Below, piece after piece: positions 2,040-14,839 of a DNA stretch of 33,828 nucleotides. The stretch comes from Candidatus Latescibacterota bacterium (GTDB lineage Bacteria; Latescibacterota; Latescibacteria; Latescibacterales; Latescibacteraceae): contig JAFGMP010000260.1 in the NCBI GenBank assembly GCA_016927495.1, positions 1 to 33,828 of the forward strand, read 5' to 3'. The notes under the pieces are model-generated. The model was not told the DNA's origin and did not search any database. It worked only from the letters and a program-made list of their open reading frames with translations. Numbering within the stretch: the stretch's first letter is position 1; each line of letters starts with the position of its first letter. A program made the translations under genes and the position numbers.

Positions 2040-2356
2040 AACTGTTTCATAGCATGCTGATGGAAATAAAAAATTGCCGTAACTTTACACAAGTTCGTAT
2101 AGACTATAAAGAAAACCGAATCAAATATATATAAATTCAATACTTCTGCAAATTATTTTTTGCTTTATGAACATATAGCAACTATGATACGAATTGTTAA
2201 AATGAAAAATATTATTGTGCAAAAGATATTATATTCTGTTTTACTCATTATTATACTTTACAGAAAAAGATTTTACCTGTATTATATAATATAAAAAATG
2301 ATAAAAATATGAATGATATTAAAATAAATGATAAAAATGTTGAGAGGGATACCATC
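2040..2356. other. AT-rich divergent intergenic region
   Basis: This gap separates the minus-strand channel/HDOD genes from the plus-strand sulfatase genes and must hold both promoters. It is very AT-rich. A plus-strand promoter candidate is listed separately. An in-frame ATG at 2309 would extend the sulfatase by 16 residues, but it has no ribosome binding site and puts a charged stretch before the Tat motif. I see no other gene here. Confidence 0.5.
2257..2285 (+). promoter_or_regulatory. Candidate sigma70-type promoter for the sulfatase/DUF4159 operon
   Basis: TTTACA at 2257-2262 (5/6 to the -35 consensus) and TATTAT at 2280-2285 (5/6 to -10) are separated by 17 nt. Transcription would begin near 2292, giving a leader of about 65 nt to the preferred ATG at 2357. 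The surrounding DNA is so AT-rich that chance matches are likely, hence the modest confidence. Confidence 0.35.
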
Positions 2357-3820
2357 ATGAAAAGATCGTCAAGAAGATCATTTATTAAATCCGCAGCGGG
2401 AATTGGGGCAGGATCGTTATTATCGAAACAAACATTTGCTCAAGAGAAGAGGCCTGAATTTACCGGGCCCCTCACAAAAGAAAAGCTACCCGATGAAATA
2501 ATCACCACAAAACCGAACGGCCTCAATATCATTGTGATTATTGCAGATACTTTCAGATGGGACTACCTCGGATATAATGGCAATTCACGTATTCAAACTC
2601 CTAATCTCGATGCACTGGCGAAAGCTGGTGTATACTTTGAAAACTGCTATGCGGACGGTCTTCCGACTATCCCTGCGCGTCGTGTTATACATACCGGCAA
2701 CAGCATTCTGCCTGACAAAAATAAATGGCGACCTCTTGAAAAAACCGACATCACTTTTGCGGAAATCGTAGGTAAGGCAGGATTCACCAGTGGATTCGTT
2801 GTGGATACATTCCACCATTTCAAACCTGATATGAACTTGCATCGCGGTTTCGACAACTGGATCTGGATACGCGGTCAGGAATCAGACCCCTATAAAAGCG
2901 GACCGCGTAATTCTGTAAATCCCGCGGACTATGCACCAAAACATCTGTTGAATGAGTATTTTCATGAGCGTATCGTTCAGTACATTCTCAATACAAAAGA
3001 CCGTAAAAGTGAAGATGATTATTTCTGCGCACAAAGCTGCAGCGCGGCCGCTCACTGGCTTGAGGAAAACAAGGATAATGACGGGCCGTTTATGCTGTTC
3101 ATCGACATGTTCGATCCCCATGAGCCGTGGGATGCACCACCCCGGTTCAAAAAAATGTATCGAAATAAATTCCCCTTCGAGCGTTATATTTTTGGATATG
3201 GTGTTAATTTGGAGGATATTCGTGAAGATGATATACCCCTGCTGATCGATCTGTATTCTGCGGAGGTCACATTCAGCGATTATTGTATTGGACGCCTGCT
3301 GGATGATGTGAAGCGGCTGGGATTATGGGATAATACCATCATTGCATTCAGCACCGACCACGGAACTCATCTCGGTGAACAGGGATGTGTCCAAAAACAG
3401 GCGAAACTGCTTAACTCCTGCATCGGACGGGTACCGTTGATAATCAGGCACCCGCAGGATAGAACCTCATGGGGTAAACGTGTCGATGCGCTGACAAGCC
3501 ATATGGATTATCTGCCTACATTTCTGTCATTGCTCGGTGTCGATACCAATATAATGTTTGACGGCAGGAATATGTGGGACCTTGTTACGGGAACGGAAAA
3601 GAAACTGCGCGATTATGCAATTACCGGATATGGCAACTTCGGGTCGATTCACAACCATGAATGGCATTATCTGCAAAATGTGTGGGGCGACAATCCGGGG
3701 CTGGGGCCACAACTTTATGACCTTAAAAAAGATTTCGGTGAAGAAAAAAATGTTGTAAGCAGTAATCAGACTGTAGTAAATAACCTGAAGAAGATTTTGA
3801 ATGATTCGTTTAAGGTATAA
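2357..3820 (+). CDS. Tat-exported sulfatase-like hydrolase with Thr at the nucleophile position
   Basis: This is an alkaline-phosphatase-superfamily (sulfatase-type) protein of 487 residues. The start at 2357 is preferred: GAGAGG sits upstream at normal spacing and the product opens directly with a twin-arginine signal (SSRRSFIKSAAGIGAGS) ending near TFAQ. Family blocks seen: ADTFRWDYLGYNG (metal Asp64), LPTIPARRVIHTGN, FDPHEPW and STDHGTHLGEQG (Asp334, His335). In active sulfatases the second block reads C/S-x-P-S-R and Cys or Ser becomes formylglycine; here the position is Thr104 (codon ACT at 2666-2668), and the second metal Asp of the DD pair is Thr65. Thr is the nucleophile in NPP-type phosphodiesterases, so phosphoester hydrolysis is possible; a non-catalytic role is another option. 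DUF4159 follows 22 nt downstream. Confidence 0.88.
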   Translation: MKRSSRRSFIKSAAGIGAGSLLSKQTFAQEKRPEFTGPLTKEKLPDEIITTKPNGLNIIVIIADTFRWDYLGYNGNSRIQTPNLDALAKAGVYFENCYADGLPTIPARRVIHTGNSILPDKNKWRPLEKTDITFAEIVGKAGFTSGFVVDTFHHFKPDMNLHRGFDNWIWIRGQESDPYKSGPRNSVNPADYAPKHLLNEYFHERIVQYILNTKDRKSEDDYFCAQSCSAAAHWLEENKDNDGPFMLFIDMFDPHEPWDAPPRFKKMYRNKFPFERYIFGYGVNLEDIREDDIPLLIDLYSAEVTFSDYCIGRLLDDVKRLGLWDNTIIAFSTDHGTHLGEQGCVQKQAKLLNSCIGRVPLIIRHPQDRTSWGKRVDALTSHMDYLPTFLSLLGVDTNIMFDGRNMWDLVTGTEKKLRDYAITGYGNFGSIHNHEWHYLQNVWGDNPGLGPQLYDLKKDFGEEKNVVSSNQTVVNNLKKILNDSFKV

Positions 3821-5293: not shown

Positions 5294-7456
5294 ATGAAAT
5301 CGGATGCCGTTCGCAGAATGTTTCATTTTTTTATTGTCTTAATACTACCGGTTATTTCGTTGAGTTTATCCGAAAAATGTACCGCTCAGGAATATGCAGC
5401 CGTAAATACGGTGCAGGGTGTCAATTCAATGTCCGGTGACAGTAAAAAAGTACTCCCCATTTTCAGACATGGCGCATACGGAAATGAATACATAGAACTG
5501 AACAATGGTCATATACAGATAATCCTTTTCAGGCGGATAAATGGCTGGGCATGGGGCGAAATCTATACTCCTTCGGGCAAATTTATGGCTGTACTCGAAC
5601 ATCTTGGCGAAGTGATGCTGCGTGATCAGGACATTCCCATGAGGCTTGAGGCAGACAGTGTGTACACAAAGTCCGGACCGGAAGGAAAAAGCTTCATGTT
5701 TAAGGTTAAATCCACTGTTGTCAGAGAAAAACTCAAAGGAACGTCATTCGAAAAGTGGATGCTGTATCCTTTGGAACACCCGTGTGTTGTAGGAGAGGTG
5801 ACGCTTACAATTTCTCCGGATAAACCCATTATATATATAAAATATCGCCTTGAAGGCACAGCAAACTATTTCGTGCGCTATATACGGGGGCCCTGGCTCC
5901 GTGTGGGTGAAGAATCTTTCGGGATAAAGAAAGATGACGCTATTTTCCCGGGAGTGGAATGGCTTATTGACAGTGAATGGTCAAGCGGATCGGACTGGTT
6001 TAAGTATCCTTGGTCTGAACGGTTTGTACCGCATCCGAACAAGGTATCGATTCCGCTAATGGCGTTAAGTTATGAGGGTGACGGGATCGGTCTGGCATGG
6101 GAACCGAATCAGATTGCTACCCGCTGGTTCAATTTTCGGACTCAGAGACCGCAGCCGGTTTTCGCCGTACCGAATTTTATCGACAGGATGAATAACAGCC
6201 TTATGGGAATTATGATTCCCGATGCATCTGCAGAGGGAGAGGAAAACAAACCGTATGCCGATATACCTCTTGAATTGCGGGTTGGGCAGATGATTAATTT
6301 CGACGCAGAACTGTGGCTCAGCAAAGGGAACAGCCTGAATGTCGTTACCGACTGGGTACAACGTCATGGATTACCTGAGCCACCGGAACCGAAATGGCCA
6401 TTCGAAGAAACACTCTACAATATTGCCGGCGCATATAATTCCAATTTTTGGGTTGAAGGCAAAGGATTTCAGGGCAGGTCTCATGTGCCCGGTTTCCTCG
6501 ATCGTTATGTGCGTGAACATACAGGTACGAAACTCGGTAAAGCATTAAAAGAAAAAATAGATTGGTGCAACTCTCAATCCAATACAAAAGAGGCAAGTGA
6601 AGATACGGTCAAAAATGAATTGATAAAACAAGGCGATACTCTTCTTCAGTTACAGCATGAGGACGGATCATATTATTTCGATCCCGATGGCCGTCATTAC
6701 GTCAAGGATGACTTCAAGGTAGCCACTTCTTTTATAGAACCTATGGGTCATGCAGGTGATACGGCGCTCGATCTGTGTATGACTCCGGTGCCGACTCTTT
6801 TGAACATTGCGGAAAAAACCGGGAGGCAGGAATATAAAGAGGGTGCCAGAAAAGCCCTGGAATACTGTATTTCGATGACCCGCCCCGAAGGTGGTGATTA
6901 CTGGGAAACACCACTTCACGCCCCTAATCTTTATGCGGCAGGACATGCTGCAATAGCGTATTATCTGGGGTATAAAGCTTTCGGTGATGAGCGATATAAA
7001 GAAAAAGCGATTTACTGGATACGTTCGCTGATTCCCTTTACCCATCTATGGGAAACCCCCGCTGTCAATATGATGTATAATACCAAACCATGCTTATGTT
7101 CCAGCGACTGGTACTTTGCCAACTGGGTGCGTGACCATGTGCAATGGGAGGTGCTTTCGGTGTTCAAAGTATCGAGTGACTATGGTATAAAGTGGGAAGA
7201 GGTTGATCCTGAAATCGACTGGACTCGCTACTTCAAAGGTGTTACTGTGGCTGCTATACGATGGATGCATACCAGTAAAGACAATGACTGGCGGCCGCAC
7301 AACCTTCCTGAAACATATGAACCCTTCAAAAACGGTGAGTTCGATTATTGTTTTGCCGATACCCATAACAGCACAACAGGAAATTACGGGGGAGCGTTTA
7401 TCGGGCCTGAATTGATTGCAACAAATATATATACGATTCTTGACAGAAAGTGGTAA
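5294..7456 (+). CDS. Large secreted protein, probable carbohydrate-active enzyme of unrecognised family
   Basis: The 720-residue protein has a Sec signal peptide (hydrophobic core about 9-25, cleavage probably after TAQ near residue 32) and AAGGAAGG at good distance from the ATG. Residues about 55-370 are strand-rich with many aromatic residues (NGHIQIILFRRINGWAWGE, the SGSDWFKYPWSERF region), like a beta-sandwich. The remainder is helical: its TGRQEYKEGARKALEYCI, APNLYAAGHAAIAYYLGYKA and GDERYKEKAIYWIRS units resemble hairpins of an alpha/alpha toroid found in glycosidases, epimerases and polysaccharide lyases. I do not recognise a specific family or catalytic motif. It sits alone after a terminator and promoter, near a sulfatase-like operon, which agrees with a periplasmic glycan role. 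Function is inferred from fold impression only. Confidence 0.8.
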   Translation: MKSDAVRRMFHFFIVLILPVISLSLSEKCTAQEYAAVNTVQGVNSMSGDSKKVLPIFRHGAYGNEYIELNNGHIQIILFRRINGWAWGEIYTPSGKFMAVLEHLGEVMLRDQDIPMRLEADSVYTKSGPEGKSFMFKVKSTVVREKLKGTSFEKWMLYPLEHPCVVGEVTLTISPDKPIIYIKYRLEGTANYFVRYIRGPWLRVGEESFGIKKDDAIFPGVEWLIDSEWSSGSDWFKYPWSERFVPHPNKVSIPLMALSYEGDGIGLAWEPNQIATRWFNFRTQRPQPVFAVPNFIDRMNNSLMGIMIPDASAEGEENKPYADIPLELRVGQMINFDAELWLSKGNSLNVVTDWVQRHGLPEPPEPKWPFEETLYNIAGAYNSNFWVEGKGFQGRSHVPGFLDRYVREHTGTKLGKALKEKIDWCNSQSNTKEASEDTVKNELIKQGDTLLQLQHEDGSYYFDPDGRHYVKDDFKVATSFIEPMGHAGDTALDLCMTPVPTLLNIAEKTGRQEYKEGARKALEYCISMTRPEGGDYWETPLHAPNLYAAGHAAIAYYLGYKAFGDERYKEKAIYWIRSLIPFTHLWETPAVNMMYNTKPCLCSSDWYFANWVRDHVQWEVLSVFKVSSDYGIKWEEVDPEIDWTRYFKGVTVAAIRWMHTSKDNDWRPHNLPETYEPFKNGEFDYCFADTHNSTTGNYGGAFIGPELIATNIYTILDRKW

Positions 7457-7731: not shown

Positions 7732-8760
7732 CTATGCATACCGTATCCGCCATTCATCCATCCATTTGTATTTCGGCGGCAGATATGCTCCTAATGTTCT
7801 GTCGGCTTTTTTGGACAGGTCTTTAAGTACTTTCTGATCTTCTTTGGTAAAGTCAGGATGCCAGAGCGAGTCGAGCGCATCCCATACTTCGCCGATAGTG
7901 TTGAGCGACGGCAGCACAGAAGCCACATCCTCATTCTGCCACATGTAGCGGTATGCCGCTTTCGGGTAACTTGTCCCGCGATAATCCGGTGAGAGCAGCC
8001 CCAAATACTGCGCATATGCAACCATCGGATCGCCGCCCATAGGTTTGATACCGAGAATCCCAATGTTTTTTTCACGGCATAGTGATATGACCGTGCTGTA
8101 GGAGTCCTGAGTATCGGCGCCCCATGCCTTGTTGTGGTGAAAATTAAGCGGCATCATAATATAATCCACCGGTTTATTCTCAACCGCGTAGAGGACTCCC
8201 GGTTCGTTATGTGATACGACGCCGACCGCACGGATTTTGCCCTGGTCACGCATCTTAAAGAGGATATCGAGATCACTTTCACCCTTGGTGTGATTGTCTG
8301 AGTCACGGTAAACAATTCGATAACAGTCTATGTAATCGGTGTTAAATGTACGAAGCGCTCCCTCGATTTCAGTCTGTACATCGTCCTGGACTGCTACAAG
8401 CGAGATCACAACCTTGTCACGTTTCCCGGCAAGCGATTTCGCCATCGGTTTAAACTGATGAAATATGCTGTGATCATAAATATCATAGATGTTGATACCG
8501 TTCTCGAAACCTTCCTGAATTTGACGGTCGCGGCGTTTTTCGTCCTTCAGGTTTTCTTCCGAGAGGTGCGAACCGAAACCGAGGCGGCTGACTTTAATTC
8601 CTGTTTTTCCGAGTTCCCTATATACCATTTCACGGTTTCCGGGTAACGGATAATGAGGGATTTTTTCAACATCCTTTTTTTTTGCATGTACTGCTGTGGC
8701 ACCCATGCTCAGTGTCGCAGCCCCCAGAGCCGATTTTTTTATCATGTCACGTCTTTTCAT
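7732..8760 (-). CDS. Tat-exported aldo/keto reductase homologue lacking the catalytic tetrad
   Basis: The 342-residue protein begins with a twin-arginine signal (MKRRDMIKKSALGAATLSMG, cleavage near VHA) behind AGGCGG. The mature part follows the AKR barrel: YRELGKTGIKVSRLGFG (48-63), the GINIYD strand, RTFNTDYIDCYRI, DQGKIRAVGVVSHN, GILGIKPMGGD and a C-terminal VASVLPSLNT segment. In AKRs the tetrad is Asp, Tyr, Lys, His. Aligned by eye, Asp93 is kept, but the Tyr position is Ser98, the Lys position (end of VVIATK) is Val122 and the His position is Val150. It is therefore unlikely to be a standard NADPH reductase. It is the last gene of a four-gene operon with three Gfo/Idh/MocA homologues. 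Family is firm; activity is unknown. Confidence 0.9.
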   Translation of the reverse strand: MKRRDMIKKSALGAATLSMGATAVHAKKKDVEKIPHYPLPGNREMVYRELGKTGIKVSRLGFGSHLSEENLKDEKRRDRQIQEGFENGINIYDIYDHSIFHQFKPMAKSLAGKRDKVVISLVAVQDDVQTEIEGALRTFNTDYIDCYRIVYRDSDNHTKGESDLDILFKMRDQGKIRAVGVVSHNEPGVLYAVENKPVDYIMMPLNFHHNKAWGADTQDSYSTVISLCREKNIGILGIKPMGGDPMVAYAQYLGLLSPDYRGTSYPKAAYRYMWQNEDVASVLPSLNTIGEVWDALDSLWHPDFTKEDQKVLKDLSKKADRTLGAYLPPKYKWMDEWRIRYA

Positions 8761-8864
8761 ATATACCGCCTTTTAAAATAGTTTTCGTGTCATATTCTTT
8801 ATTCATAAGTTACTTTCTTTAGACTCTGATTAAATAATATCGATTCAAATTAATTTTAAATTAT

Positions 8865-9968
8865 TTAACCGTAATTTCTGAGCAGCCACCGTCTGATTGC
8901 CTCCGAATAGGGGAGTGCATCGTCGCCACCGAGCGAATCCAGTATGACCGCTCTTCCGGTAAGCCGTGACCGGTTGGTCGCCACAAGCATGCGGTGTTGT
9001 TCGAGAATCGCCTCATATGGTCGCGGCGCTTTACGGTTGACATAAAAGTCATGCATGGCAGCAAACATGTGTTCGAAAATGGTGTCGGTATCGGCTTCAA
9101 ACAGTTTATTTTCTTTTGCGGCATAGACATCGATATGATAACTTCCCGGTTGGACACCGATATGATTCATGCCGATAATAGGCGGTTGACCATCCCGAGG
9201 TTTATAGGTAAGGACACTGAGCGCCGAACCGATAGGTTTTGTCTCGGTTAACCAGCTTCCGAGATCGAGCTGCGGACGGTTTCCTTCGATCCATCTGCCC
9301 ATATCCATGAGATATTCGCCGGTAAAATATGCGGACTCGACTCCTCCGCCGAATGAAGCATGGGCATAATTAAAAACATGGGGAAACATCCAGGTGAAGT
9401 GTGGTTCGGGACAATAGGCTTCATAAGCACGCAAAGGCCCTTTATCCTTTACAAATTGCTGCATTTCCGTAACAACCGGCTGGAATTCAAGGGAAGAAGC
9501 GCACATAACCGGGGCATCGTATGCACGAGCGAGTCGTATGACCTCCTCGGCATCGGCGATGGTGGCGGTAAATGGCCTGTTGATAAACACCGGTTTACCC
9601 GCTTCGAGCGCCGGACGGGCAAGTTCGAACACTTTACGGTAATCCGCATGTTCGACATGAACCACATCAGATTCTTTCACAAGCTCTACCGGATCGTCGA
9701 TTATTTTTTCGAACCGGAATTTTTCTTTCAGTGCCTGTGCAGCCTGAGGAACATCATCCCATACAGCATAAGGTATGCACTTCACTTTGCCGCGGAATTT
9801 TTCAGGTGGTTTGGTGAAGGACTCCACAAAACCATGTGAGCCCAGACCTAATTGTCCGATTTTAACTTTGCCCAAATCCTGAGCAAATGCCGGGGATTTC
9901 TGTGATGCCACAATCCCGGCGATACCCGTTGCGATGGTTGTTTGTAAAAACTTTCTTCGATTACTCAT
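8865..9968 (-). CDS. Tat-exported Gfo/Idh/MocA family protein (paralog A, NRP variant)
   Basis: The 367-residue protein has a twin-arginine signal (MSNRRKFLQTTIATGIAGIV, cleavage after FAQ near 30) and AAGGA before the ATG. The Rossmann part starts at KVKIGQLGLGSHG (34-46), a variant of the GxGxxG dinucleotide loop. The family's hallmark EKP, which carries the catalytic Lys, reads NRP at 130-132 (Arg131). The following conserved strand is ASSLEFQP. The C-terminal half holds FPHVFNYAHASFGGG and ends with LDSLGGDDALPYSEAIRR. It is about as long as typical family members. It lies between paralog B upstream and the aldo/keto reductase gene 104 nt downstream. Sugar binding in the periplasm is likely; a redox activity is doubtful, although export through Tat would allow bound NAD(P). 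Confidence 0.9.
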   Translation of the reverse strand: MSNRRKFLQTTIATGIAGIVASQKSPAFAQDLGKVKIGQLGLGSHGFVESFTKPPEKFRGKVKCIPYAVWDDVPQAAQALKEKFRFEKIIDDPVELVKESDVVHVEHADYRKVFELARPALEAGKPVFINRPFTATIADAEEVIRLARAYDAPVMCASSLEFQPVVTEMQQFVKDKGPLRAYEAYCPEPHFTWMFPHVFNYAHASFGGGVESAYFTGEYLMDMGRWIEGNRPQLDLGSWLTETKPIGSALSVLTYKPRDGQPPIIGMNHIGVQPGSYHIDVYAAKENKLFEADTDTIFEHMFAAMHDFYVNRKAPRPYEAILEQHRMLVATNRSRLTGRAVILDSLGGDDALPYSEAIRRWLLRNYG

Positions 9969-9989
9969 CTGTTTTTTTCCTTTATTTAT

Positions 9990-10071
9990 TTAACCACGAA
10001 GTCACTGGAACACAAAAAATAACTTTATTTTATTTTTTTTCTTTTTCTCTATCGCTTTGTAACTTTATCAC
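9990..10071. repeat. Degenerate dispersed repeat in the gap between paralogs A and B
   Basis: TTAACCACGAAGTCAC at 9990-10005 resembles, in reverse complement, TCTTTGTGTCTTCGCGTTAA at 26678-26697. The minus-strand reading of 10055-10071, GTGATAAAGTTACAAAG, resembles GTGACAAAGTGACAAG at 33542-33557. These look like worn copies of a dispersed noncoding sequence. The rest of this 108-bp gap is AT-rich with no gene. Confidence 0.35.
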
Positions 10072-10076
10072 TTTTT

Positions 10077-11174
10077 TTAATTCCTGTACGGTTTCAGTAC
10101 GAACTCACGTATCGAATCGTCATAAGGGAGCGCATCACTGCCGGTGAGAGTATCGAGTTTTTCCGCTCTGCCTGATAACCGTGACTTGTTAGTGGCGACC
10201 AGCGCGCGATGCTGTTCGAGAATCGCCTCGTAAGGCCGCGGCGGCTTACGGGTAACGAAAAAGTCGTTTTGCGCCAGAAACATGCATTCGAAAATGTTTG
10301 CAGCGTTGAGTTCGCCGCCCGAGATGAAATTTTTACTCTCCTGAAAAGCATATATAAAGATATTATATGTACCGGGAGCCTGCCCGATCTGATTTATACC
10401 GATGATCGGTGGTTGTCCGTCCCGCGGCTTGTAGGTAAGCAGGCTGAACGCAGAGCCGTAAGGCCTTTCGGGATCGACGAATTTACCGTTTTCTATGCCG
10501 ATATTACCCATTTTGATAATATAGTCTCCGCTGAAATATGCCGTATCGATACCGCCGCCGAGCGCTGCATGGGCAAAATTGATGACATGGGGAAACATCC
10601 AGGTGAAATAAGGCTCCGGGCAATAGGCCTCATAACTGCGCACCGGCCCTTTCTCCTTCGCAAACTGTTTCATATCCTCGATTTCCGGCTGAAATTCGAG
10701 CGATGAAGCGCACATAAGCGGTGAGTTGTGAGCGCGGGCGAGACGAACGACCTCCTCGGCATCGGCAATCGAGGCGGTAAACGGCCTGTTGATAAATACC
10801 GGTTTGCCTGCTTCTAAAGCCGGACGAGCGAGTTCCAGGACTTTACGGTAGTCCGCATGCATAACGAAAACGCCATCCGATTCTTTAACCACATCCTCAG
10901 GAGTTTTCATGACCTTTTCAAATCCCATGGAAAGCATTTTCTCAGCTACTCCGGGAACATCATCCCATACGGCATAGGGCCTGCATCGTATTATGTCTTT
11001 GAATTTCGGGGCCGGATTTTTAAACCGCCCGGCAAATCCGTGGGAACCCATACCAAGTTGTCCGAGCTTAATTTTATTCATGTCCTGTGCAAATGCTGGG
11101 GCGTGTCCGGCGGCAAGAATACCGCTGATGCCTGATATTCCCGCTTTTTGAATAAAGGTTCTTCGTGTGTCCAT
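10077..11174 (-). CDS. Tat-exported Gfo/Idh/MocA family protein (paralog B, NRP variant)
   Basis: Start choice: AAGG ends 8 nt before the ATG at 11174, and that product opens MDTRRTFIQKAG, a clean twin-arginine signal; the GTG at 11183 and ATG at 11180 are too close to the ribosome site. The 365-residue protein has KIKLGQLGMGSHG (34-46) as nucleotide loop, HADYRKVLELARPALEAGKP and FINRPF (Arg130 where the family has catalytic Lys), then ASSLEFQP. It is highly similar to paralog A over its whole length (shared EAYCPEP, FTWMFPHV, TYKPRDGQPPIIG, ALPY), so the two arose by tandem duplication. It is the second gene of the operon, 67 nt after paralog C. Catalysis is doubtful for the same reason as in paralog A. 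Confidence 0.9.
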   Translation of the reverse strand: MDTRRTFIQKAGISGISGILAAGHAPAFAQDMNKIKLGQLGMGSHGFAGRFKNPAPKFKDIIRCRPYAVWDDVPGVAEKMLSMGFEKVMKTPEDVVKESDGVFVMHADYRKVLELARPALEAGKPVFINRPFTASIADAEEVVRLARAHNSPLMCASSLEFQPEIEDMKQFAKEKGPVRSYEAYCPEPYFTWMFPHVINFAHAALGGGIDTAYFSGDYIIKMGNIGIENGKFVDPERPYGSAFSLLTYKPRDGQPPIIGINQIGQAPGTYNIFIYAFQESKNFISGGELNAANIFECMFLAQNDFFVTRKPPRPYEAILEQHRALVATNKSRLSGRAEKLDTLTGSDALPYDDSIREFVLKPYRN

Positions 11175-11241
11175 GTACATCACCTTTTGAATTGAATTTT
11201 TTAATCAATATGAATTCAGTGTATTTTATTAATTAACTTTT

Positions 11242-12318
11242 TTATGTATTCCTCTTAAGTACTCTGTCCAGTACATACCTTCGTATGCCGTCCGAATAGG
11301 GGAGTGCATCCTGCCCGCCGAGTGAATCGAGATTAACAGCGCAGCCCCTGAGTCTCGACACATTCGCTGCAACAAGTGTCCTATGCATTTCAAGAATTGC
11401 CTCATATGGCCGTGGAACTTTTCCGAACGAATAGAATTCGTTGAGTTTATCGAACATATTCATATCCCACTTACCTTTGAGGACAAAATTTCTGTTTTCT
11501 TTAGCCGCATAGACATCAACATGAAATCCGTTCTCGGTGGGGTAAGTCCCGATGTGGCACATGCCGATGATCGGCGGTTGTCCCTCACGGGAGGTGTAGG
11601 TGAGCACACAGAGCGATGTGCCGACCGGCTCTTTTTCTACCCGCCATTTACGCATATCGATTCCGAAATGACCGGTGAAATATACCGATTTTATCCCTCC
11701 GCCGAGAGCCGCATGTGCATAGTTCAGCACATGGGGGAAATGCCATGTGAAATGTGCCTCGGCGCCGTATGCCTCGTATGCCCGTACAGGCCCATTTTCC
11801 TTTAGGAACTCCTGCATATCGGTAACATCGGGGCCGAATTCAAGCGAAGAGGCGCTCATAAGGGGCGCATTATATCTTTTTGCCAGCCGGACGATTTCCT
11901 CCGCATCTTCGATTTTTGCGACAAACGGACGGTTGAGAAAAGTTGGTTTGCCCTGTTCGAGGCCAAGCTGCGCAAGTTCAAGCCCTTTACGGTAGTCCGC
12001 ATGCTCAATATGTATGCAATCGCAGTCTATCGCCAGTTTTACCGGATCCTTGTATACTTTCTCATATATATTTCCTTTAGCCACTTTTGCGGCTTCCTGA
12101 CAATCGTCCCAAATGGCATATGGTTTTGCCAGTACTTCTTTTTTATAATCGTCGGGAGGATTTTTGAAACGGGTCGCAAAATTATGCGAACCGAGACCAA
12201 GAACGCCGATTTTCTTCAATTTCATATCTTTTGCATATGCGGGAGCTTTGCCTGAGGCAACGATTCCCGCTATACCGGCAAGGGCAGTTTTTTTAACAAC
12301 GTTATTGATTTCTCCCAT
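11242..12318 (-). CDS. Exported Gfo/Idh/MocA family protein (paralog C, no twin-arginine)
   Basis: This is the first gene of the minus-strand operon, with AGGAAAGGAT before the ATG. The 358-residue protein has KKIGVLGLGSHN (35-46), HADYRKGLELAQLGLEQGKP and FLNRPF (Arg130 replacing the family's Lys), then ASSLEFGP. It shares PRPYEAILE and QDALPYSDGIRRYVL with A and B but is the most diverged of the three. Its leader aligns with the Tat leaders of A and B (TALAGIAGIVASGKAPAYA against TIATGIAGIVASQKSPAFA). However, the segment before it reads INNVVKK, with Lys-Lys in place of Arg-Arg. It may therefore use Sec, be Tat-exported as a complex with a paralog, or stay inside. Family call is firm. Confidence 0.9.
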   Translation of the reverse strand: MGEINNVVKKTALAGIAGIVASGKAPAYAKDMKLKKIGVLGLGSHNFATRFKNPPDDYKKEVLAKPYAIWDDCQEAAKVAKGNIYEKVYKDPVKLAIDCDCIHIEHADYRKGLELAQLGLEQGKPTFLNRPFVAKIEDAEEIVRLAKRYNAPLMSASSLEFGPDVTDMQEFLKENGPVRAYEAYGAEAHFTWHFPHVLNYAHAALGGGIKSVYFTGHFGIDMRKWRVEKEPVGTSLCVLTYTSREGQPPIIGMCHIGTYPTENGFHVDVYAAKENRNFVLKGKWDMNMFDKLNEFYSFGKVPRPYEAILEMHRTLVAANVSRLRGCAVNLDSLGGQDALPYSDGIRRYVLDRVLKRNT

Positions 12319-12631: not shown

Positions 12632-14839
12632 ATGTTAAAGCAACGCATCAAAAGTCATGTGAATCTATTATTGCCGGGCATCAATGGTGGTATCGTCATA
12701 GGAATTTCGAATATTCTTTTTCTCGTATCCTATGGAGTTTTGATTTTTTCCGGTCCCCTTTCAGAATATGTTTTCAGAGGCATAGGCCTTATGCTGTTTG
12801 GGGCATTTGTCATAGGTATCATCACAACATTTACCAGTTCATTTCGCAGCACAATTGCCACTCCTCACTATAGTACGGCAGCCGTTATAGCGTTTATTGC
12901 GGCAGCGATAACCATTACAATGCCCATTACTGCAACATCAGAACAATCGTTTTATACTGTTACAGCCGTAATTGCTCTGATTTCAATTTTTGTGGGTGTA
13001 TTTTTCTTCTTAATGGGTGTGTTCAAGCTTGGATACCTGATTAGATTTATTCCTTATCCGGTTGTTGGCGGTTTTTTGGCAGGAGTCGGATGGTTGATAG
13101 TAAAAGGTGCTATAAATACCATGACAGGAATTACGCTTGATTTTTCACAACTGACCCGTCTCTTTCAATTCGCCATTGCTGTCGAATGGATACCGTGTTT
13201 AATATTCGCACTACTTTTACTCTTTGTTTTACGACGCCACAAACATTTTTTAATTCTGCCGTCAATGATCATAGTTACAATTATTTTGTTCTATATCGTC
13301 CTTTTTCTTACCAACACCTCTCTTGACGAAGCCAGAGAATCAGGTTGGTTATTTCAGAGAACCGAAGACACTGCACTGTGGCAACCGTTCACTGTGGTAG
13401 CTTTGTCTGAGGTTAATTGGACGATACTTTTCGGACAAATTGGAAATATTGGCTCAATATTAATCATCAGTGTTATCTCTTTCCTGCTTAATGCAACCGG
13501 GCTTGAGTTGGCTGTAAACCGGGATATTGATTTGAACAGAGAACTTCAATCGGTCGGTTTAGCAAATTTTGTTGCAGGATTTGGCTGTGGTCCGGTTGGT
13601 TGTCACACACTCGTAAATTCAACAATTGCACATAAAATGGGATCAAACAGTCGGCTTCCCGGTATCATTTCGGCTGTAATATGTGGCACTGCATTATTTT
13701 TTGGTGCTCCAATTATATCGTATTATCCAAAACCGGTGATAGGGGGTTTACTCCTATTTCTCGGATTAAGTTTCATCATTGAATGGATATATGATGCATG
13801 GTTCAGACTCCCAATAATAGAATACATTCTCGTTAATGTGATTTTTGTTATCATAGGAATATTTGGCATAGTACCGGGTATTATTGGTGGGCTATTTATT
13901 GCTGTTACGTTATTTGTGGTGCAATATAGTCGCATTGATGTTGTCAAACATGTGATATCCGGGGCTTATTATCAGAGTAATGTTGACAGAGCATTACCAC
14001 AAAGACTTCTGCTCAACGATAAAGGCGACCAATTGTTGATTCTGAAACTTCAGGGTTTTATCTTTTTTGGTACTGCAAACAATATACTTGAGGCAGTACA
14101 ACAGCGAGTGGAAAATCATACTAAATTGCCCCTGCGTTTTGTTCTGCTTGACTTTCAACTGGTAAACGGATTTGACTCATCGGCATTAAGCAGTTTTATA
14201 CGAATTATACATTTGTCGGAATCACACAATTTGACTATGGTTTTGACCAGTCTGCAACCTGATTATCAACGGCAATTCGAAAGCAAGGACTTTATCGAAA
14301 ACGATACTGATATATTAAAGATTTTCCCATATATGGATTACGGTGTTGAGTGGTGTGAAGACCAGATATTAATCGCTGAGAATGCGCTCATACCAATAAA
14401 AGACAGTATGTCAGACTTACAGGATATTACTTTTTCTTCCGAATCAGTATTTGAAAATTTGATGAAATATCTTGAACAACTGGATGTTGAAAAAAACCAC
14501 TATATAATTCATCAGGGGGAACCGTCGAATAATCTGTATTATATAAAGTCGGGTCAGGTAGAAGTACGTCTTGAGAGTGATAATGAAAAGATTGTTCGGT
14601 TACGAAAGATGAGGGCAGGTTCTGTTGTAGGTGAACTTGGTTTATATCTGAAAATACCTGCCTCGGCATCAGTAGTCGCAAGTGAACCGAGTATAATTTA
14701 TCGTCTGTCGATAAACTCCCTAAAGACAATGGAACAATCCGAACCTGAAATTGCCACGATTTTCCATAAATATATTGTTAATCTACTGAGTGAAAGACTG
14801 GCAAATACCAATAAAACCATTCGGATGTTATTACATTAA
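12632..14839 (+). CDS. SulP family anion transporter with STAS and cyclic-nucleotide-binding-like domains
   Basis: The 735-residue inner-membrane protein has three parts. Residues about 10-435 form a multi-helix SulP-type core (PGINGGIVIGISNI, RFIPYPVVGGFLAGVGWLIV, LEL plus NRDIDLNREL, GFGCGPVGCHT). A STAS domain covers about 455-575, with VLLDFQLVNGFDSSALSSF at 504-522. A cNMP-binding-like domain covers about 605-730 (IIHQGEPSNNLYYIKSGQVE, AGSVVGELGLYLKIPASAS). In true cAMP/cGMP receptors the phosphate cassette has P-R-x-A; here Arg is replaced by Ala677, so ligand binding is uncertain. SulP members carry sulfate, bicarbonate or other anions; the substrate cannot be read. The start has only a weak ribosome site. 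It is followed 27 nt later by a small membrane protein. Confidence 0.9.
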   Translation: MLKQRIKSHVNLLLPGINGGIVIGISNILFLVSYGVLIFSGPLSEYVFRGIGLMLFGAFVIGIITTFTSSFRSTIATPHYSTAAVIAFIAAAITITMPITATSEQSFYTVTAVIALISIFVGVFFFLMGVFKLGYLIRFIPYPVVGGFLAGVGWLIVKGAINTMTGITLDFSQLTRLFQFAIAVEWIPCLIFALLLLFVLRRHKHFLILPSMIIVTIILFYIVLFLTNTSLDEARESGWLFQRTEDTALWQPFTVVALSEVNWTILFGQIGNIGSILIISVISFLLNATGLELAVNRDIDLNRELQSVGLANFVAGFGCGPVGCHTLVNSTIAHKMGSNSRLPGIISAVICGTALFFGAPIISYYPKPVIGGLLLFLGLSFIIEWIYDAWFRLPIIEYILVNVIFVIIGIFGIVPGIIGGLFIAVTLFVVQYSRIDVVKHVISGAYYQSNVDRALPQRLLLNDKGDQLLILKLQGFIFFGTANNILEAVQQRVENHTKLPLRFVLLDFQLVNGFDSSALSSFIRIIHLSESHNLTMVLTSLQPDYQRQFESKDFIENDTDILKIFPYMDYGVEWCEDQILIAENALIPIKDSMSDLQDITFSSESVFENLMKYLEQLDVEKNHYIIHQGEPSNNLYYIKSGQVEVRLESDNEKIVRLRKMRAGSVVGELGLYLKIPASASVVASEPSIIYRLSINSLKTMEQSEPEIATIFHKYIVNLLSERLANTNKTIRMLLH

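Follow-up and report, generated by a model that had tools for sequence, protein, structure and literature searches.

The window analysed here, which is the whole stretch of 33,828 nucleotides on contig JAFGMP010000260.1 of the Candidatus Latescibacterota bacterium assembly GCA_016927495.1, contains three tandem genes for proteins of the Gfo/Idh/MocA fold (GFO1, GFO2 and GFO3), followed by a gene for a protein of the aldo-keto reductase (AKR) fold. A preliminary description of the sequence had pointed out that the three Gfo-fold proteins carry NRP in place of the EKP motif of their family, and an arginine is indeed found at the position of the catalytic lysine in all three. This arginine is shared by a large clade of paralogues, in which it is coupled to a second exchange in the active site, and members of the clade lie next to genes of the AKR family far more often than expected. 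The four genes of the window are transcribed from one strand in the order GFO1, GFO2, GFO3, AKR, and they are likely to form one operon, because the gaps between them are short (about 58, 108 and 104 bp).

11242..12318, minus strand: GFO1, Gfo/Idh/MocA-fold protein of 358 amino acids, first gene of the putative operon; NRP (R130), E160, H196, W70; leader without twin arginine
10077..11183, minus strand: GFO2, Gfo/Idh/MocA-fold protein of 368 amino acids from a GTG start (alternative ATG at 11174); NRP (R133), E163, H199; Tat leader RRTFIQKAG
8865..9968, minus strand: GFO3, Gfo/Idh/MocA-fold protein of 367 amino acids; NRP (R131), E161, H197; Tat leader RRKFLQTT
7732..8760, minus strand: AKR-fold protein of 342 amino acids; V122 and V150 at the Lys84 and His117 positions, no Tyr at Asp+5; Tat leader RRDMIKKSA
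11929..11931, minus strand: codon of GFO1 R130, position of the catalytic lysine
10785..10787, minus strand: codon of GFO2 R133, position of the catalytic lysine
9576..9578, minus strand: codon of GFO3 R131, position of the catalytic lysine
9486..9488, minus strand: codon of GFO3 E161, partner of R131; arginine in most Lys-bearing relatives (FNRRF/SSLRF)
9378..9380, minus strand: codon of GFO3 H197, the active-site histidine of the family, kept

Both folds are confirmed by searches with hidden Markov models (HMMs) and of structures. The Gfo-fold proteins match PF01408, the Rossmann domain at their N-terminus, with 32.5 (GFO1), 30.5 (GFO2) and 38.5 bits (GFO3), and the AKR-fold protein matches the TIM barrel family PF00248 with 49.2 bits, against a Pfam gathering cut-off of 24 in both cases; profile searches of the PDB led to the same assignments. 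AlphaFold2 models were built from family alignments made in this analysis. The GFO3 model (pLDDT 87, pTM 0.84) resembles sugar and inositol dehydrogenases in Foldseek searches, the best PDB match being TM_0414 (3ezy; TM 0.65, E about 1e-17), and the matches of the AKR model (pLDDT 81, pTM 0.81) are L-galactose dehydrogenases (best match 7svq, TM 0.64).

Export-type leaders had been ascribed to all four proteins. Leaders of the twin-arginine translocation (Tat) type are present on GFO2, GFO3 and the AKR-fold protein, but the hydrophobic leader of GFO1 lacks a twin arginine, and none can be added because an in-frame stop precedes the ATG by six codons. Relatives of GFO1 in genera g2 and g3 have the twin arginine, and another member, L045, has no leader at all. 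GFO1 would either be carried across the membrane by a partner, use the Sec pathway or stay inside the cell. An RRx[FLMVI] leader is found on 26 of the 30 genes of the same genome that encode the arginine (the Arg class).

Coupled exchanges in the Gfo active site

A gap-free profile alignment to the structures 3ezy, 3uuw and 1tlt places R131 of GFO3 on the lysine of the EKP/DKP motif and E161 on the second arginine of the motif FNRRF. The residue numbers given previously (131, 130, 130) hold for GFO3 and GFO1; for GFO2, R130 applies only from the ATG nine bases further on, and the residue is R133 from the GTG. Arg131, Pro132 and His197 (GFO3 numbering) show no variation, either among the 23 close members that four genomes of one family contributed or among 24 diverse ones, and the residue preceding the arginine is Asn in all but one of the close members. 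The feature is not peculiar to this operon: 77 Gfo-fold genes of this genome were aligned, and 30 of them carry the arginine. The others have Lys (39 rows, one of them with a doubtful alignment), EVPA/AVPA (three rows) or, in a few cases, Ser, Cys or Pro. The EVPA/AVPA genes, which we take from the motif to be GH109-like, form a separate clade in the tree, and membership of the Arg class in GH109 was therefore rejected.

The partner position lies 30 residues past the lysine and is usually occupied by an arginine in Lys-bearing relatives, within FNRRF in the three structures named above and within SSLRF in Planctomycetota. Arginine at the lysine position is combined with glutamate at the partner position in 34 of 38 informative Arg rows, and lysine is combined with glutamate in none of 71 Lys rows and with arginine in 55 of them (Fisher p 4e-24, with rows counted as independent despite their shared ancestry). 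The exceptions among the Arg rows are three with Pro and one Planctomycetota row with Arg; one group from the Latescibacterota family f8 has Gly. In the Pl-scyllo-inositol dehydrogenase, catalysis is performed by Lys106, Asp191 and His195, and the substrate is bound by Tyr135, which follows the lysine at a distance of 29 residues (PMC5969746). By analogy with this tyrosine, the exchanged position very probably lines the substrate pocket.

It had been claimed that all four proteins lack the canonical active-site residues. This is too strong, because the histidine corresponding to His195 is retained by the Gfo-fold proteins (H196, H199 and H197 in GFO1, GFO2 and GFO3, and 36 of 36 lettered Arg rows), as is the active-site Asp93 by the AKR-fold protein. 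In addition, a tryptophan (W70) at the end of the second Rossmann strand, at the edge of the NAD ribose, is found in 39 of 39 Arg rows and 6 of 6 Ser/Cys rows, and the Lys rows are mixed at this position. The Rossmann glycines (GLGSHG/N) and the ribose-binding aspartate D71 are present in the window genes, the products of which may bind NAD(P).

These proteins might be ordinary NAD(P)-dependent dehydrogenases in which Arg131 (or His197/Glu161) has taken over from the lysine in classical sugar oxidation or reduction. The retained glycines, D71 and histidine would fit such a role, as would the fold matches to dehydrogenases. The [ED]KP dehydrogenases, such as TM_0414 and the inositol dehydrogenases, share with the window genes the two-domain fold, the Rossmann fingerprint and the histidine, but the Arg class differs from them in the arginine for lysine, the glutamate for the partner arginine, the fixed tryptophan and the lack of the aspartate of the Lys-Asp-His (K-D-H) triad. 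Moreover, arginine is a poor general acid/base, and most members carry leaders for export to a compartment without NAD recycling. Replacement of the Lys, Asp or His by Ala abolished the activity of the scyllo-inositol dehydrogenase (PMC5969746). Classical dehydrogenase activity is thus regarded as quite improbable.

In the tree, all Arg rows except one from Planctomycetota fall into one clade (SH-aLRT 97), which is nested among DKP proteins and also contains CSP and RCP proteins as later variants. Because one clade holds nearly all Arg rows, the coupled exchange probably arose once and has persisted while the genes were duplicated extensively. Its range was searched in depth in 64 genomes of Latescibacterota and 294 of Planctomycetota. 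High-scoring Arg-class proteins were found in two families of Latescibacterota only: f1, the family of the window, with 23 to at least 31 matches per genome (31 candidates were scored), and f8, with zero to two high-scoring copies per genome, which have NRP or SRP. The other families of Latescibacterota and the Planctomycetota have DKP proteins. The f8 members mostly lack a leader and start directly at the Rossmann domain, and export therefore seems, from the sequences, to be tied to the expansion in f1. A scan of genome contigs with one protein gave no match; a scan with an alignment of close members, using two short peptide patterns, returned one metagenome-assembled genome (MAG) of Latescibacterota and one distant match in Phycisphaerae. 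The host of the window is uncultured, and one relative used here (G002) corresponds to the MAG SI047_bin62. The restriction of the Arg clade to Latescibacterota is provisional. In the open-access literature, no paper was found on Gfo proteins with Arg for Lys or on the family in Latescibacterota.

Two side observations concern the partner position. A Gfo-fold protein of one Planctomycetota genome (L231/L154, genome G216) has GRP with the partner arginine unchanged and represents either an independent single-step change or an intermediate. In f8, a conserved block (L240, L242, L243, L244 and L245) contains an Arg-class gene that has no leader and encodes Gly at the partner position; the neighbouring genes look, from the starts of their sequences alone, like those of an amidohydrolase and of a protein of the phytanoyl-CoA-dioxygenase type.

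The window cluster is conserved in a second genome (G001), with orthologues of GFO1, GFO2, GFO3 and AKR that are 74-80% identical (GFO2 79%). The dN/dS ratio between the two clusters is 0.06-0.07 for GFO1, GFO3 and AKR, which can only be read as well below 1 because dS is saturated at 2-3; GFO2 was left out because its dS was not computable. The genes are under purifying selection. A drift of redundant paralogues under relaxed selection after duplication might have been suspected from the large number of copies, from the absence of the twin arginine in the GFO1-type proteins of this genus and from the missing leader of L045. However, it is very improbable in view of the dN/dS values, the invariance of Arg and His in the 23 close members, the coupling of Arg and Glu, the four intact open reading frames and the orthologous cluster in the second genome, and decay was rejected on the basis of dN/dS and conservation, though dS is saturated.

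The AKR-fold partner and the pairing of the two families

In an alignment of 25 members of the AKR family, all have Asp93 and Tyr95 (Asp+2), none has a lysine in the Lys84 column or a tyrosine at Asp+5, and a histidine in the His117 column is left in three only (L043/L110, L129 and L130). The window protein has V122 and V150 in the Lys84 and His117 columns, in which nearly all Lys-bearing relatives have K and H, and the usual residues are found in the ordinary AKRs of that alignment. The earlier claim that three of the four residues of the catalytic tetrad are missing thus stands for the lysine and the histidine and for the absence of a tyrosine at Asp+5; because an HMM alignment can, with a gap, place Tyr95 on the catalytic tyrosine, the loss of all three is likely but not certain. 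Further invariant residues are R148, H184, N206 and H209; H184 and N206 were considered as new catalytic residues and rejected, because they are common to Lys-bearing relatives.

The L-galactose dehydrogenases and AKR11-type enzymes resemble this family in the TIM barrel, the match to PF00248, the closest solved structures, the active-site aspartate and a GxxxH motif that is common to Lys-bearing relatives. The window family is set apart from them by the replacements at Lys84 and His117, the lack of a tyrosine at its usual place, the invariant Arg148 and the Tat-type leader. The family is present in all four f1 genomes and in five of f8, its scores being clearly separated from those of other AKRs, and its range is thus much like that of the Arg class. 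Lower scores were obtained by four AKRs of Planctomycetota (L258, L259, L260 and L270), from which the Tyr, Lys and His are likewise missing and in which the Arg, as part of a DLWR motif, is shared; the loss of the tetrad on this branch may therefore predate the partnership with the Gfo-fold proteins. In genome G003, the AKR orthologue (L111) stands without a Gfo neighbour.

The two families are associated well beyond the window. In f1, the AKR family has 36 genes, and an Arg-class gene is found within 5 kb of 15 of them (1.8 expected, p 5e-11, which is optimistic because orthologous loci across genomes are not independent) and within 500 bp of eight (0.6 expected). The pairing of the two altered folds recurs well above chance, and the unit of interest is a genome-wide family of paralogues with recurrent pairs and trios rather than a single operon. 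Among the recurrent cassettes are SRPF-SRPW-NRPF (L313, and L303 with the AKR inside) and CSP-CSP-NRP (L030 and L048). Selection for a different job, as proposed in the preliminary description, is supported by the fixation of the arginine in a large clade, the coupled second change in the active site, the purifying selection and this recurrent pairing.

Such cassettes bear on the idea that the proteins are non-catalytic, exported binders or sensors, which would bind sugars or sugar acids in the periplasm, serve as scaffolds or form a heteromeric receptor. The loss of the lysine in the Gfo-fold proteins and of Tyr, Lys and His in the AKR-fold protein speaks for this idea, as do the number of divergent copies, which has grown to about 30 per genome, and the cassettes themselves, in which CSP proteins occur without leader, Arg, Glu and His. 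Dehydrogenase folds in non-metabolic, regulatory roles are exemplified by Gal80 (Gfo fold), which acts inside yeast and is not exported, and by Kv-beta (AKR fold). Nevertheless, binding alone appears somewhat unlikely: the active-site histidine is kept, a new charged residue has been fixed at a pocket position instead of polar drift, binding in the periplasm is normally performed by other folds, and no transporter or sensor kinase consistently adjoins the members.

The leaderless CSP proteins occur as Gfo-fold pairs (L048, 3574-5831; L030, 7761-10723; G000:C412) with CSP for EKP and Asp for the active-site histidine, and they adjoin an NRP member with a Tat leader, which would make export with a partner possible. 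Genes with FGE-sulfatase domains were tried as a general feature of the neighbourhoods and rejected, because they are found beside some members only (C385, C505 and C254). In the window itself, a sulfatase gene (2309-3817) is located near the operon. A gene for a 720-amino-acid protein with a signal-like N-terminus and no match in Pfam or NCBIfam (5294-7456, plus strand) lies between a DUF4159 gene and the operon, and a SulP-type permease with a STAS domain and a C-terminal cyclic-nucleotide-binding domain is encoded divergently from it (12632-14839, plus strand). A pentapeptide-repeat protein (PF00805) fused to a C-terminal two-helix ion-channel domain (PF07885) is encoded at 1029-2039 on the minus strand.

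Possible functions and their significance

The reading that is tentatively favoured, at slightly less than even chances, is that of an exported, duplicated and functional family with a rebuilt active site, which would perform redox-neutral chemistry on saccharides with bound NAD(H). Two paralogous families would have kept their folds while their active sites were rebuilt under selection, the Lys/Arg pair of the Gfo-fold proteins ([ED]KP ... R) giving way to Arg/Glu ([NSD]RP ... E), with the histidine kept and a tryptophan fixed at the NAD-ribose edge. Because proteins pass through the Tat pathway in the folded state, bound NAD(H) would probably be carried along across the membrane, as in the case of glucose-fructose oxidoreductase (GFOR). 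In the periplasm, the substrates of these proteins may be saccharides derived from polysaccharides of the algal type, and the reaction may be a transient oxidation, an epimerisation, an elimination or a hydrolysis, with Glu161 and His197 as acid/base in place of the lysine and Arg131 holding an oxyanion or an acidic group of the substrate. The AKR-fold partner would belong to the same pathway or complex, without performing an ordinary hydride reduction.

Such a redox-neutral or otherwise altered reaction with retained NAD(H) is favoured because the fold, the Rossmann glycines, the ribose aspartate and the histidine are kept in the window genes, and because there are precedents. Tat signals are present on GFOR and on aldose-aldose oxidoreductase (AAOR) (PMC4628093), which are likewise periplasmic Gfo-fold proteins; GFOR differs in that it belongs to a Lys-bearing family and has no arrays of paralogues beside an AKR. 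GH109 and GH188 perform NAD-dependent chemistry on the Gfo fold with His/Tyr residues (PMC10755693), and these glycosidases can serve as a mechanistic model for a site without lysine. The "loss of catalysis" proposed earlier is therefore not established, as a histidine and a new glutamate occupy pocket positions. Latescibacteria have been predicted to degrade sulfated algal polysaccharides (PMC4454575).

It should be noted that several observations weigh against redox-neutral saccharide chemistry. The genes adjoining Arg-class members give no consistent clue to a substrate, and a 3-keto-glycoside route was rejected because none of the 14 3-keto-disaccharide hydrolase genes (PF06439) of this genome lies near an Arg-class gene. 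R131 and E161 could merely form a salt bridge. Four residues before the histidine, the window genes have Trp in a column that is mixed in the nearest Lys-bearing relatives, and the classical K-D-H aspartate is absent, as it is in those relatives. The dinucleotide motif is eroded in parts of the clade, G41 being kept in only 21 of 39 Arg rows, and NAD binding may thus be absent from some members. Lastly, Arg, Glu and His are all missing from the three CSP members, a loss that favours at least some non-catalytic subunits. On balance, redox-neutral saccharide chemistry with bound NAD(H) is considered more likely than mere binding. A more far-reaching proposal, put forward with considerable doubt and as unlikely, is a periplasmic system not described so far, with dozens of Gfo-fold proteins that have an Arg-Glu-His site and would be exported by Tat. 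In pairs and trios with each other and with a tetrad-less AKR, these proteins would either perform a new redox-neutral reaction of saccharides or serve as heteromeric sugar receptors.

The family is an altered variant of known folds rather than a single operon in decay. In routine annotation, a Gfo/Idh/MocA or AKR fold is by itself enough for a protein to be called a dehydrogenase or a reductase, and here a large, conserved and mostly exported clade breaks the residue rule behind this practice, in coordination with a second fold next door. The activity of the clade would mean a further chemistry or recognition system for the use of polysaccharides by an uncultured phylum, and it would show where the automatic annotation of two very large families fails.

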